DNA of 8,174 nt from Candidatus Atribacteria bacterium (lineage in GTDB: Bacteria > Atribacterota > JALVIU01), in NCBI GenBank assembly GCA_027028665.1, contig JALVIU010000325.1, forward strand, positions 1 to 8,174, given 5' to 3'. This document shows positions 4,616-7,668 of this stretch, in pieces. The number at the start of each line of letters is the position of its first letter. Positions within the stretch are counted from its first letter, which is position 1. The position numbers and the translations under genes are program-made. The notes under the pieces were generated by a model, which worked only from the letters and a program-made list of their open reading frames with translations, did no database searches and was not told the origin of the DNA.

Positions 4616-4644
4616 TTGATTTTATTTTGAACTTGGTATATAAT
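4616..4644 (+). promoter_or_regulatory. Promoter for tRNA-Arg (and probably tadA)
   Basis: TTGATT (4616-4621), a 17-base spacer and perfect TATAAT (4639-4644) lie between the sufB stop and the tRNA. The predicted start near 4651 leaves about seven bases before the mature tRNA 5' end, as expected for a stable RNA promoter. No hairpin terminator separates it from sufB. Confidence 0.75.
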
Positions 4645-4657
4645 ATATACGACAAGT

Positions 4658-4731
4658 GCGCCCGTGGCTCAATTGGATAGAGCGACGGACTACGGATCCG
4701 TAGGCTGAGGGTTCGAATCCTTCCGGGCGCG
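4658..4731 (+). tRNA. tRNA-Arg (anticodon ACG)
   Basis: A complete cloverleaf of 74 bases including the discriminator. The acceptor GCGCCCG/CGGGCGC is fully paired, the D stem is GCTC/GAGC, and the anticodon stem ACGGA/TCCGT encloses loop CTACGGA with ACG at 4692-4694. The T arm GAGGG-TTCGAAT-CCTTC has one G-U pair. The discriminator is G4731 and CCA is not encoded, so a CCA-adding enzyme is needed. In bacteria A34 of this tRNA is deaminated to inosine by TadA, letting it read CGU, CGC and CGA; tadA begins 23 bases downstream. A run of seven T (4733-4739) follows almost directly. Confidence 0.97.
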
Positions 4732-4754
4732 CTTTTTTTATTGTCTATGAAACC

Positions 4755-5258
4755 ATGAATGATAAAGATATAGCTTTTATGAGAGAGGCTCTTAATGAGG
4801 CAAAAATTGCATATAGAAAAGATGAGGTCCCAATAGGTGCTGTAGTTGTAAGAGATAGCAAAATTATAGGGCGGGGTCATAATCTTAGAGAGTCACTAAA
4901 GGACCCTACTGCCCATGCAGAACTTATTGCTATACGAGAGGCCTCAAGGAGCATAGGGGATTGGCGCTTAGAGGATACTACTTTGTATGTAACCCTTGAG
5001 CCCTGTATTATGTGTGCAGGTGCCATCCTTCTCTCTCGTATTCCAAGGGTTGTATTTGGTGCAGAGGATAAAAAAGGTGGGGCACTGGTAAGTTTGTTAC
5101 ATGTATTTGATACCCCAGGTCTAAACCATAAGGTGGTGTATGAGGGCGGGGTCTTAGAGGAGGAATCGAGAAGGCTTTTAAAGGAGTTCTTTAAGGCATT
5201 GCGAAATAAGGAGAAGTGGCCGAGCCTGGCCGAAGGCGCTCGACTCGAAATCGAGTAG
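4755..5258 (+). CDS. tadA: tRNA(adenine-34) deaminase TadA
   Basis: TadA is the zinc-dependent deaminase that turns the wobble adenosine of tRNA-Arg(ACG) into inosine. Catalytic features are clear: H54 and E56 in DPTAHAE (zinc ligand and proton shuttle) and PCIMC with zinc ligands C84 and C87. The PIGAVVV segment (26-32) and VVFGAEDKKGGA further identify it. At 167 residues it equals E. coli TadA in length. The start is ATG 4755, which follows tRNA-Arg closely and has no Shine-Dalgarno; a second in-frame ATG (4779) has none either. The oddity is the 3' end: codons for the last 16 residues (EKWPSLAEGARLEIE and the base before it) and the TAG stop (5256-5258) lie in the tRNA-Ser(CGA) gene, a 49-base overlap. 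The family core appears to end near FFKALRNK, so this tail is probably dispensable. Confidence 0.95.
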   Translation: MNDKDIAFMREALNEAKIAYRKDEVPIGAVVVRDSKIIGRGHNLRESLKDPTAHAELIAIREASRSIGDWRLEDTTLYVTLEPCIMCAGAILLSRIPRVVFGAEDKKGGALVSLLHVFDTPGLNHKVVYEGGVLEEESRRLLKEFFKALRNKEKWPSLAEGARLEIE

Positions 5259-5294
5259 GCATTTGCCTCGTGGGTTCGAATCCCACCTTCTCCG
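5210..5294 (+). tRNA. tRNA-Ser (anticodon CGA), overlapping the end of tadA
   Basis: A class II tRNA of 85 bases including discriminator G5294. The acceptor GGAGAAG/CTTCTCC is fully paired, the anticodon stem CTCGA/TCGAG encloses loop CTCGAAA with CGA at 5246-5248, a variable arm with GGC/GCC follows, and the T arm is GTGGG-TTCGAAT-CCCAC. It reads UCG. CCA is not encoded, and six T (5295-5300) follow the discriminator. The first 49 bases are also tadA coding sequence, with the tadA stop in the variable region. No convincing separate promoter was seen just upstream within tadA, so it may be processed from the tRNA-Arg/tadA transcript. Confidence 0.96.
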
Positions 5295-5329
5295 TTTTTT
5301 CAAAAGGATAACTTTTTGTTATAATTATC

Positions 5330-5358
5330 TTGACATAATTTGCGAAAGGCACTATAAT
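5330..5358 (+). promoter_or_regulatory. Consensus promoter upstream of tRNA-Ser(GGA), SRP RNA and dnaX
   Basis: TTGACA (5330-5335), a 17-base spacer and TATAAT (5353-5358) give a perfect match to the sigma-70 consensus. The start is expected near 5365, about 35 bases before the tRNA. As no comparable promoter is seen before the SRP RNA or dnaX, it probably drives tRNA-Ser(GGA), the SRP RNA and, by readthrough, dnaX-ybaB-recR. Confidence 0.85.
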
Positions 5359-5399
5359 ATACTGTAGTTTGAAAAAATAGGATATAAGGATAATTTAAT

Positions 5400-5487
5400 G
5401 GAGAGGTGGCTGAGTCTGGCCGAAGGCGCTCGCCTGGAGAGCGAGTAGACAGTTCCTGTCTCGTGGGTTCAAATCCCACCCTCTCCG
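5400..5487 (+). tRNA. tRNA-Ser (anticodon GGA)
   Basis: A class II tRNA of 88 bases including discriminator G5487. The acceptor is GGAGAGG/CCTCTCC, the anticodon stem CTCGC/GCGAG encloses loop CTGGAGA with GGA at 5436-5438, a variable arm with GACAG/CTGTC follows, and the T arm is GTGGG-TTCAAAT-CCCAC. It reads UCC and UCU. CCA is not encoded, and a T6-A-T5 tract (5488-5499) follows. Its 5' half is nearly identical to tRNA-Ser(CGA) 190 bases upstream, as expected for isoacceptors sharing SerRS identity. Confidence 0.97.
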
Positions 5488-5511
5488 TTTTTTATTTTTG
5501 GGTTTAAAATT

Positions 5512-5788
5512 TGTGGCCGTGCTAAGCGGGGAGCTAGCGGTGCCCTGTACCCGCAATCCGCTATAGCGGGGCTGAACTCCCAGCAAGAGGTCCCTTCTTG
5601 CTACAAGGCTGACTCTCTGGGGAGGTGTTGAGGACCGGAGCCTGTGCAATAGAGGCTTGCAAACCCCGTCAGGTCCGGAAGGAAGCAGCGGTAAGCAATG
5701 TCCTCTATGTGCCTCAGGGTCCTCTGGTCTGAGCTTTCCCAGGGAGGATCGCTTGTAGTAATGGATCGAAGCTGGGTGCACGGCCACA
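5512..5788 (+). ncRNA. ffs: Signal recognition particle RNA, long Alu-containing (Bacillus-like) type
   Basis: About 277 bases closed by a perfect terminal helix: TGTGGCCGTGC (5512-5522) pairs with GCACGGCCACA (5778-5788). The 5' part is an Alu domain very like Bacillus scRNA (GCTAAGCGGGGAG, then GGTGCCCTGTACCCGCAATC). The S domain holds the highly conserved Ffh-binding hairpin at 5668-5694, with GTCAGGTCC, tetraloop GGAA (5677-5680), GGAAGCAG and GGTAA. The RNA binds Ffh and targets nascent membrane and secreted proteins to FtsY and the translocon; the Alu domain is associated with translation arrest. Its place between tadA and dnaX matches Bacillus. No good promoter lies directly upstream, so it is probably processed from the transcript starting near 5365. 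Confidence 0.96.
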
Positions 5789-5801
5789 TTTTAGGATGTG
5801 G
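5784..5801 (+). promoter_or_regulatory. Possible hairpin between SRP RNA 3' end and dnaX ribosome-binding site
   Basis: CCACAT (5784-5789) and ATGTGG (5796-5801) can pair with a six-base loop TTTAGG. The 5' arm is the last part of the SRP RNA terminal helix; the 3' arm covers the GTG at 5798 and the first bases of the dnaX Shine-Dalgarno GGAGGT. The hairpin and the complete SRP helix cannot form together. A regulatory effect is inference only. Confidence 0.35.
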
Positions 5802-7339
5802 AGGTAAAAATTTATACAGCATTATATAGGAAGTGGAGACCTCAAACCTTTGAAGAGGTAAAAGGTCAAGAGCATATAACAAGAACCTTAGCCAATGCTG
5901 TAAAAACAGGTAAGATAGCCCACGCTTATCTTTTTGTAGGTCCCCGAGGAGTTGGAAAAACATCGGTTGCACGTATATTTGCCAAGGCCTTAAACTGTAA
6001 AAAAGGTCCTACCCCTCACCCGTGTAATGTATGTACAAATTGTGTAAAGATAACAAAAGGGATTTCCCTTGATGTTTTAGAGATAGATGGGGCATCTAAT
6101 AGAGGTATTGATCAGATAAGGGACCTTAAAGAGCGCATAAAGTTTGCATCTGTTGAGGGAAGGTATAAGATATACATAATCGATGAAGTTCATATGCTTA
6201 CAAATGAGGCCTTTAATGCCCTTCTTAAGACACTTGAAGAGCCCCCTTCTCATGTAATATTTATATTTGCCACTACTGACCCTCAAAAACTTCCTTCTAC
6301 AATCCTTTCAAGATGTCAAAGATTTGACTTCAGGAGGCTTTCCCCAGATATTATTGAGGAAGAGATAGAAGAGATATTGAATAGAGAGTCCATAGAATAT
6401 GAAAAGGATGCCTTATTACTTGTCTCTACCTTTGCAGATGGTTCTATGAGGGATGCATTATCCATCCTGGAGCAGGTAATATCTTATACAGAGGGACATA
6501 TTACCTATGAAAAGACACTGGATATCTTAGGGATTGCCGGGGATGAGGTAATATATTCTATATTAAAAAGTGTAAAAGAGGGTGAGAGAAAAGATATAAT
6601 AAAGGCTATAAGTAGTGCATTGGAGAGAGGAATAGACCTGCAGTCTCTATATAGAGATATTTTAAATATGTTAAGGGATCTTTCTCTATATATGATAGGT
6701 GGTTCGAGACTTTTAAAAGATCTGCCAGCTTCATATATAAAAAGATTGGAGTTTCTTTCTAAGATCTATGATATTAAAGATGTGGAAAGGCTACTTGATA
6801 GATTTATTACCTATGAAAATCAGATGAAGACTACACTGGTTCCACGAGTAGTACTTGAATTTCTTTTGCTTTTCGGTATCTCGAGAGAGTCTATGAGGCA
6901 AGAAGAGGAGAGGCCTTCTGAGACATTAGAGGAGGACTTATCTTCACTTGAGGAGACAACCGAAAAAGAAGCTACAGAAGATATTGAAGAAGAAATAGCC
7001 GATAATGATAATGTAGAAGATATACCTATTACTGAGAAAGATGTATGGGATAGACTTATTGAGTCTCTTGATAACAAGGTACTCGCCAATTCACTGAAAA
7101 ATAATATAGAATCTTATAAATTGGAATCCAATAAGCTTATATTGGATATTCCTCAAGAGCTATTTTTTTATTTAGAGGACAAAAAAAAGACACTAAAAGA
7201 TGCCTTGAAGAGGCTTTTAGGAAGAGATATAATTATAGAATTAAGAGAGATTAAATCTAATTCTCAAGATGATCATCATCTTTTAAAGGAAGGACTTTCT
7301 ATTTTTGGTGGAAGGATTATAAATTTAGAGGAAGATTAA
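5798..7339 (+). CDS. dnaX: DNA polymerase III subunit gamma/tau
   Basis: DnaX is the ATPase of the clamp loader; tau also joins polymerase cores and the helicase. In order: Walker A GPRGVGKTS (48-56), zinc module C67, C76, C79, C82, Walker B with DEVH (129-132), sensor/SRC finger (171-173), domain III to about 370, an acidic linker (about 370-425) and a C-terminal tau-like domain. It is 513 residues, shorter than E. coli tau (643) and near Thermus DnaX (about 529). The only in-frame ATG/GTG/TTG near the front is GTG 5798, but its Shine-Dalgarno would be one base away. The perfect GGAGGT at 5800-5805 instead points to ATT at 5810, giving MYTALYRKWRPQ, which matches the family N-terminus. A slippery site at 7183-7189 may yield a shorter form. 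The gene sits 9-21 bases after the SRP RNA. Confidence 0.95.
   Translation: MEVKIYTALYRKWRPQTFEEVKGQEHITRTLANAVKTGKIAHAYLFVGPRGVGKTSVARIFAKALNCKKGPTPHPCNVCTNCVKITKGISLDVLEIDGASNRGIDQIRDLKERIKFASVEGRYKIYIIDEVHMLTNEAFNALLKTLEEPPSHVIFIFATTDPQKLPSTILSRCQRFDFRRLSPDIIEEEIEEILNRESIEYEKDALLLVSTFADGSMRDALSILEQVISYTEGHITYEKTLDILGIAGDEVIYSILKSVKEGERKDIIKAISSALERGIDLQSLYRDILNMLRDLSLYMIGGSRLLKDLPASYIKRLEFLSKIYDIKDVERLLDRFITYENQMKTTLVPRVVLEFLLLFGISRESMRQEEERPSETLEEDLSSLEETTEKEATEDIEEEIADNDNVEDIPITEKDVWDRLIESLDNKVLANSLKNNIESYKLESNKLILDIPQELFFYLEDKKKTLKDALKRLLGRDIIIELREIKSNSQDDHHLLKEGLSIFGGRIINLEED
5800..5812 (+). promoter_or_regulatory. Shine-Dalgarno and probable ATT start of dnaX
   Basis: GGAGGT (5800-5805) is followed after four bases by ATT (5810-5812), in frame with dnaX. 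The encoded start (M)YTALYRKWRP agrees with usual DnaX proteins, which begin a few residues before ALYRKWRP. The upstream GTG (5798) overlaps this Shine-Dalgarno and would add four residues. Confidence 0.5.
7174..7220 (+). promoter_or_regulatory. Candidate programmed frameshift/slippage site in dnaX
   Basis: Codons 462-464 read AAA AAA AAG (A8 at 7181-7188, then G), so heptamer A-AAA-AAG is in the correct zero frame, as in E. coli dnaX. AGAGGA (7174-7179) is a Shine-Dalgarno-like element just upstream. Three bases downstream a stem-loop can form: CTAAAA (7193-7198) with TTTTAG (7215-7220) and GCC (7202-7204) with GGC (7212-7214), bulge GAT, seven-base loop. A -1 shift adds 21 residues before TAA; a +1 shift (or A7 transcript) stops at TAA 7194-7196. 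Confidence 0.5.
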
Positions 7340-7353
7340 TAGGAGGTGTAGAG

Positions 7354-7668
7354 ATGGCTAAAGGGTTACAGAATCTTATGAAACAGGCACAAGAACTTCA
7401 AAAAAAGCTTGAAAGGGTACAAGAAGAGCTTGGAGATATGGAAGTAGAGGCTACTGCTGGTGGTGGAATGGTAAAGGTAGTGGCAAATGGAAAACAGGAT
7501 ATACTAAGTATCCAGATAGACCCAGAGGTAATAAATCCAGAAGATAAGGAGATGCTTGAGGACCTTGTACTTGCTGCGGTAAACGAAGCATTACGAAAGT
7601 CTCGTGAACTTGCTGCAGAGGAGATGGGTAAGGTTACAGGTGGAATAATGCCACCTCAATTCATGTAG
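7354..7668 (+). CDS. ybaB: Nucleoid-associated protein, YbaB/EbfC family
   Basis: A 104-residue dimeric DNA-binding protein of the YbaB/EbfC family, usually 100-110 residues. Residues about 4-30 form a charged amphipathic helix (LMKQAQELQKKLERVQEEL). The family block EATAGGGMVKVVANGKQDILSIQIDPEV follows, then a C-terminal helix and GGIMPPQFM. Members bind DNA broadly and help organise the nucleoid; the constant link with dnaX and recR suggests a role near replication or repair, unproven. The start is firm: AGGAGGTG (7341-7348) lies five bases before ATG 7354, 14 bases after the dnaX stop. It is the middle gene of the dnaX-ybaB-recR operon. Confidence 0.95.
   Translation: MAKGLQNLMKQAQELQKKLERVQEELGDMEVEATAGGGMVKVVANGKQDILSIQIDPEVINPEDKEMLEDLVLAAVNEALRKSRELAAEEMGKVTGGIMPPQFM

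Follow-up and report, generated by a model that had tools for sequence, protein, structure and literature searches.

Organization of the locus

The window, by which we mean the whole 8,174-nucleotide stretch analyzed (contig JALVIU010000325.1 of a Candidatus Atribacteria bacterium), carries tRNA-Arg(ACG), tadA, tRNA-Ser(CGA), tRNA-Ser(GGA), the large SRP RNA, dnaX, and ybaB, in that order, with the following features:

4616-4644, + strand: promoter-like TTGATT-17-TATAAT upstream of tRNA-Arg(ACG), 10/12 match to consensus
4658-4732, + strand: tRNA-Arg(ACG) (ARAGORN; Rfam, 67.6 bits), then a T run at 4733-4739
4755-5258, + strand: tadA, 167 aa, with the catalytic domain complete at about residue 150 (position 5204)
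5210-5294, + strand: tRNA-Ser(CGA) (ARAGORN; Rfam, 56.4 bits), nucleotides 1-49 common to tadA
5210-5258, + strand: tadA/tRNA-Ser(CGA) overlap, from the last base of tadA codon 152 to the TAG, covering the acceptor, D, and anticodon arms
5295-5300, + strand: T run directly 3' of tRNA-Ser(CGA), a possible terminator or trailer judging from its sequence
5330-5358, + strand: perfect promoter consensus TTGACA-17-TATAAT (12/12) for tRNA-Ser(GGA), 40 nt upstream of it
5399-5488, + strand: tRNA-Ser(GGA) (ARAGORN, Rfam), without overlap
5517-5783, + strand: large bacterial SRP RNA (Rfam, 211.9 bits)
5798-7339: dnaX, following the SRP RNA
7354-7668: ybaB, following dnaX

The open reading frame (ORF) at 4755-5258 is identified as tadA by its match to NCBIfam PRK10860 (178.6 bits against a cut-off of 150), and it has the TadA zinc-site motifs HAE and PCxxC, in which H54, A55, E56, P83, C84, and C87 are invariant (alignment A1). 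It starts 22 nt downstream of the gene for tRNA-Arg(ACG), a known substrate of TadA, and enters tRNA-Ser(CGA) on the same strand with no stop codon ahead of the tRNA, terminating at a TAG (5256-5258) that forms nucleotides 47-49 of the tRNA, directly 3' of the anticodon stem. ORF translation, ARAGORN, and Rfam all bear out the first-pass annotation in placing the tadA stop within the tRNA, and its count of 16 tadA codons lying there is correct, with the first tRNA base in the split codon 152 and 46 nt of overlap before the stop. By both ARAGORN and Rfam the tRNA-Ser(CGA) is canonical with every stem paired, and it is probably functional. The tRNAs of the window encode no CCA and have T runs directly after them (4733-4739, 5295-5300, and 5488-5500), as do many further tRNAs of this genome; relatives encode CCA. 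Elsewhere in the window, a 119-aa ORF (2302-2661) with an HEIGHYFG motif and no NCBIfam match is likely a small zinc metallopeptidase.

The predicted TadA structure is confident up to residue 150, where the last helix ends; solved TadAs align only as far as approximately residue 152-155. The tRNA thus starts directly after a domain that is complete at residue 150, and RNase P cleavage would leave a message still encoding all of it. The C-terminal tail, whose sequence is dictated by the tRNA as had been proposed, is predicted to be disordered (pLDDT <50 for residues 159-167, and 44 for the last block). We rejected the tail as a folded element, as structure prediction shows none, and likewise a special fold of the 3' region (MFE z-score, -0.76).

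Recurrence of the overlap at tadA loci

We compared approximately 160 tadA loci, drawn from relatives and other phyla and sampled unevenly in that they were picked by likeness either to the window TadA or to an overlapping Desulfotomaculia TadA. Where tRNA-Ser(CGA) is present no more than 400 nt downstream (82 loci), the tadA stop falls within the tRNA in 42, so that the overlap recurs at 41 loci besides that of the window. It is present in at least six lineages, and occurs in the window's genome and sister families f3, f4, and f6 of its phylum, in approximately 17-20 Desulfotomaculia, in a clade of five Aquificota genomes, and at single loci in Myxococcota (L064), Planctomycetota (L054), Bacillota (L077), and another phylum (L016). 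In families f2 and f5 of the window's phylum the tRNA lies 8-294 nt downstream of tadA without overlap, and many non-overlapping loci have tRNA-Ser 4-60 nt beyond tadA. At least 12 state changes are required on the TadA tree, a minimum given that many forks are unresolved. A tRNA-Arg(ACG) gene lies within 300 nt upstream on the same strand at 32 of 157 tadA loci, in several phyla.

The reading frame at the tRNA start varies, and frames 1, 2, and 3 are all used among the overlapping loci, which argues that no particular tail has been selected across lineages. The overlap is shared with other families of the window's phylum but in a different frame, the tRNA starting at codon position 3 in the window and at position 1 in its phylum; the longer D loop of the window tRNA restores the final frame of the relatives, ending EGARLEIE-stop. 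A single inherited frame is therefore rejected, both by this difference and by loci L016, L054, L064, L077, and L013, which differ again.

Other tRNA genes provide a baseline for these observations. A same-strand ORF of at least 50 aa enters none of the 25 other tRNAs of this genome, and among 68 tRNAs of two complete relatives (excluding the tRNA of tadA) there are only two such entering ORFs, both of 59 aa and seemingly spurious. The overlap is thus specific to tadA, with 0/25 here and no convincing case among the 68, and this baseline together with the recurrence at tadA loci led us to reject chance ORF read-through. We conclude that the overlap arose repeatedly where tadA adjoins tRNA-Ser(CGA), independently in several bacterial phyla.

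Retention and loss of the overlap in Desulfotomaculia

The numerous Desulfotomaculia loci permit a test of retention, using the 4-8 linker codons that separate the last conserved Arg from the tRNA in 17 genomes with an intact tRNA. These codons offer a mean of 2.9 one-base routes to a stop, and linker lengths vary in whole codons. The third-position tree length is 9.3 changes per site, such that synonymous sites are near-saturated, and 0 nonsense changes are seen in the linkers where approximately 7 are expected at the synonymous rate, although this rate is rough and TadA may need a few of these residues. Retention of the overlap through near-saturated synonymous change suggests that it is kept by selection in this group.

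Four Desulfotomaculia loci no longer have an intact copy of the original tRNA-Ser(CGA) downstream of tadA: it is broken or missing, and another tRNA-Ser(CGA), different and complete, is nearby (approximate oriented coordinates: L212, 1960-2128; L217, 1960-2128; L211, 1958-2213; L220, 1980-2092). Two of them, L212 and L217, have lost the 3' half of the original tRNA to foreign DNA that carries a tRNA-Ser(CGA) of its own, distinct from the first; what was the 5' half remains as the tail of tadA, the stop being supplied at the junction, and the two loci have the junction sequence GTGCATAAAAACTGAATAATTATACA in common, directly after the anticodon stem. The arrangement resembles elements that carry their own replacement tRNA. 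The tRNA-derived tail is partial in L211 and absent in L220. We also note that in one Desulfotomaculia genome (G166) tadA is present twice, nearly complete in each case and including the region of the tRNA-derived tail (G166:C16:1869-2372 and G166:C114:6098-6598), reflecting either duplication or contamination.

A proposed shared transcript with two alternative uses

Competition between tRNA maturation and TadA synthesis, as raised in the first-pass annotation, requires that the two share a transcript. The best promoter match within 100 nt upstream of tRNA-Ser(CGA) scores 4/12, the lowest among the leading tRNAs of the genome; the others score 7-12, mostly at least 10, and both neighboring tRNAs, tRNA-Arg(ACG) and tRNA-Ser(GGA), score 10-12. 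Because tRNA-Ser(CGA) has no promoter-like upstream sequence, a transcript shared with tadA is likely, and going by these consensus matches the tRNA is probably made from it. The element at 4616-4644 is the probable start of the transcript carrying tadA and tRNA-Ser(CGA), a role assigned from its sequence.

Our preferred reading, to which we give a probability of roughly 0.55, is that this one transcript has two alternative uses, either translation of TadA or release of tRNA-Ser(CGA) by RNase P. Transcription would begin upstream of tadA, with tRNA-Ser(CGA) forming the 3' part of the RNA and lacking a promoter of its own. A ribosome reaching the TAG would have to unfold the 5' half of the tRNA, yielding the 167-aa TadA; alternatively, the tRNA would fold and RNase P would cut at 5210, yielding tRNA-Ser and a stopless tadA message that encodes the complete catalytic domain and about one residue more. 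That such a cut would leave the message stopless follows from the sequence layout, as first proposed, but the further statement that one RNA cannot yield both products is overstated, since translation first and processing later would give both from one molecule. The output of TadA would be capped relative to that of the tRNA, which may be tolerable because few TadA molecules should be needed. The overlap itself could have originated in an ancient tadA/tRNA-Ser neighborhood by loss of the tadA stop through a point change or small deletion, a loss that would be harmless because the C-terminal tail is disordered.

Any regulation by the overlap is hypothetical. We hypothesize that tRNA processing lowers TadA expression, which is likewise a hypothesis for the related system described in PMC8124441; many translations per transcript before processing could make the competition negligible. 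A more far-reaching possibility, which we consider doubtful, is that selection has repeatedly given rise to a switch here, maturation of tRNA-Ser(CGA) eliminating the tadA message. If so, the supply of the inosine-making enzyme would be tied to the tRNA output of an operon headed by its own substrate, tRNA-Arg(ACG). The suggestion that tmRNA rescue is routine for this message is not supported, as neither tmRNA nor SmpB was found in the window's metagenome-assembled genome (MAG; ~90% complete); across the phylum, 38 of 50 genomes have SmpB.

Alternative explanations

The main rival is a neutral origin with little consequence, in which the stop was lost beside the tRNA, the overlap is held by inertia, translation ends before processing, and nothing is regulated. 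We regard this as possible at somewhat worse than even odds. The independent origins in different frames and the disordered tail are as it predicts, and the 4-60 nt spacing at many non-overlapping loci indicates that a single step suffices to create the overlap. It accounts less readily for the 17 Desulfotomaculia, none of which has returned to a separate stop despite several one-step routes and near-saturated synonymous sites, or for the lack of such overlaps at other gene-tRNA pairs. If the overlap were instead kept for the protein, the tRNA-derived tail working in TadA (for example, by contact with its tRNA substrate), conservation of the frame within clades through whole-codon changes in linker length would be explained, as would the tail that outlasted its tRNA in L212 and L217. 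However, lineages differ in both frame and tail, the tail is shortened in L211 and missing from L220, and it is disordered in a low-confidence prediction, such that we consider a tail function quite improbable.

Two other explanations were considered. A promoter for tRNA-Ser(CGA) within tadA, giving message and tRNA from separate transcripts, would be in keeping with the other lone tRNAs of the genome, which have their own; the 4/12 match makes this unlikely, although such a promoter could be weak or of a non-sigma-70 type. Alternatively, an assembly error could be responsible, with one A missing in CGAAATAAGG and hiding a TAA that abuts the tRNA, a concern that had been raised as a sequencing error concealing an earlier stop. 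Adding one A to the AAA of CGAAATAAGG, immediately ahead of position 5207, gives CGAAAATAA, with the protein ending LRK-stop exactly ahead of the tRNA, and this species is represented by a single assembly. The difference in frame between the window and its phylum relatives keeps the concern alive, but the occurrence of the same arrangement in dozens of independent assemblies weakens it. Moreover, all other recognizable window genes are intact, which makes an assembly indel unlikely, and misreading of three-base runs is rare; we consider such an error very improbable.

Comparison with known systems

Annotation pipelines commonly avoid or trim overlaps between coding sequences and tRNAs, so such cases may be under-reported. 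In E. coli, a secG-leuU mRNA-tRNA co-transcript was reportedly described by Mohanty and Kushner in 2008; it is similar in that RNase P frees the tRNA from a transcript starting at the protein gene. To our knowledge, the secG coding sequence and the tRNA do not overlap, so the stop stays after processing.

The tadA/tRNA-Ser overlap was not found in the open-access literature (subscription journals lay outside the search), and selB with its tRNA is the only similar bacterial case found there. Overlaps of selB and selC occur in Alphaproteobacteria, Gammaproteobacteria, and Nitrospirae (Mukai 2021, PMC8124441), with the selB stop at tRNA nucleotides 46-48 in Dyella and Luteibacter, a similar case in Nitrospirae, and a selC remnant carried by selB of Sinorhizobium meliloti (PMC8124441). 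Mukai proposed a two-fate model for selB/selC, with the protein alternatively expressed from a nonstop message once the tRNA has been processed (PMC8124441). This is the closest precedent: in both systems the gene of a tRNA-handling protein runs into a downstream same-strand tRNA and stops mid-tRNA, and in both a remnant tRNA half can persist as a C-terminal tail after insertion, as in L212 and L217. The systems differ in that tRNA-Sec is the ligand of the SelB protein itself and is often wholly nested, whereas tadA encodes a housekeeping deaminase, shares only the 5' half of its tRNA, and overlaps an elongator tRNA outside the targets of the deaminase. The anticodon CGA has no A34, and the TadA substrate tRNA-Arg(ACG) lies upstream and is not overlapped. 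Since tRNA-Ser(CGA) is no substrate of TadA, it is not obvious why the two products should be matched, unlike in selB/selC. What is new relative to selB is thus the genes, the involvement of an elongator tRNA not modified by the protein, and the much wider spread, across more distant phyla.

Animal mitochondria provide a further parallel, as in the cox1/tRNA-Lys overlap of Armadillidium vulgare (cited in PMC8124441). These overlaps are similar in placing a same-strand tRNA in or overlapping an ORF, with processing competing with the message, and different in belonging to a compact, non-bacterial organelle genome. The tadA/tRNA-Ser pair shows that a protein message and a tRNA can share sequence outside mitochondria and selenocysteine genes as well, in a housekeeping gene pair that has evolved the overlap at least six times in bacteria and retained it for long in some clades, and it offers a simple natural setting in which to test the competition between translation and RNase P for a single RNA.
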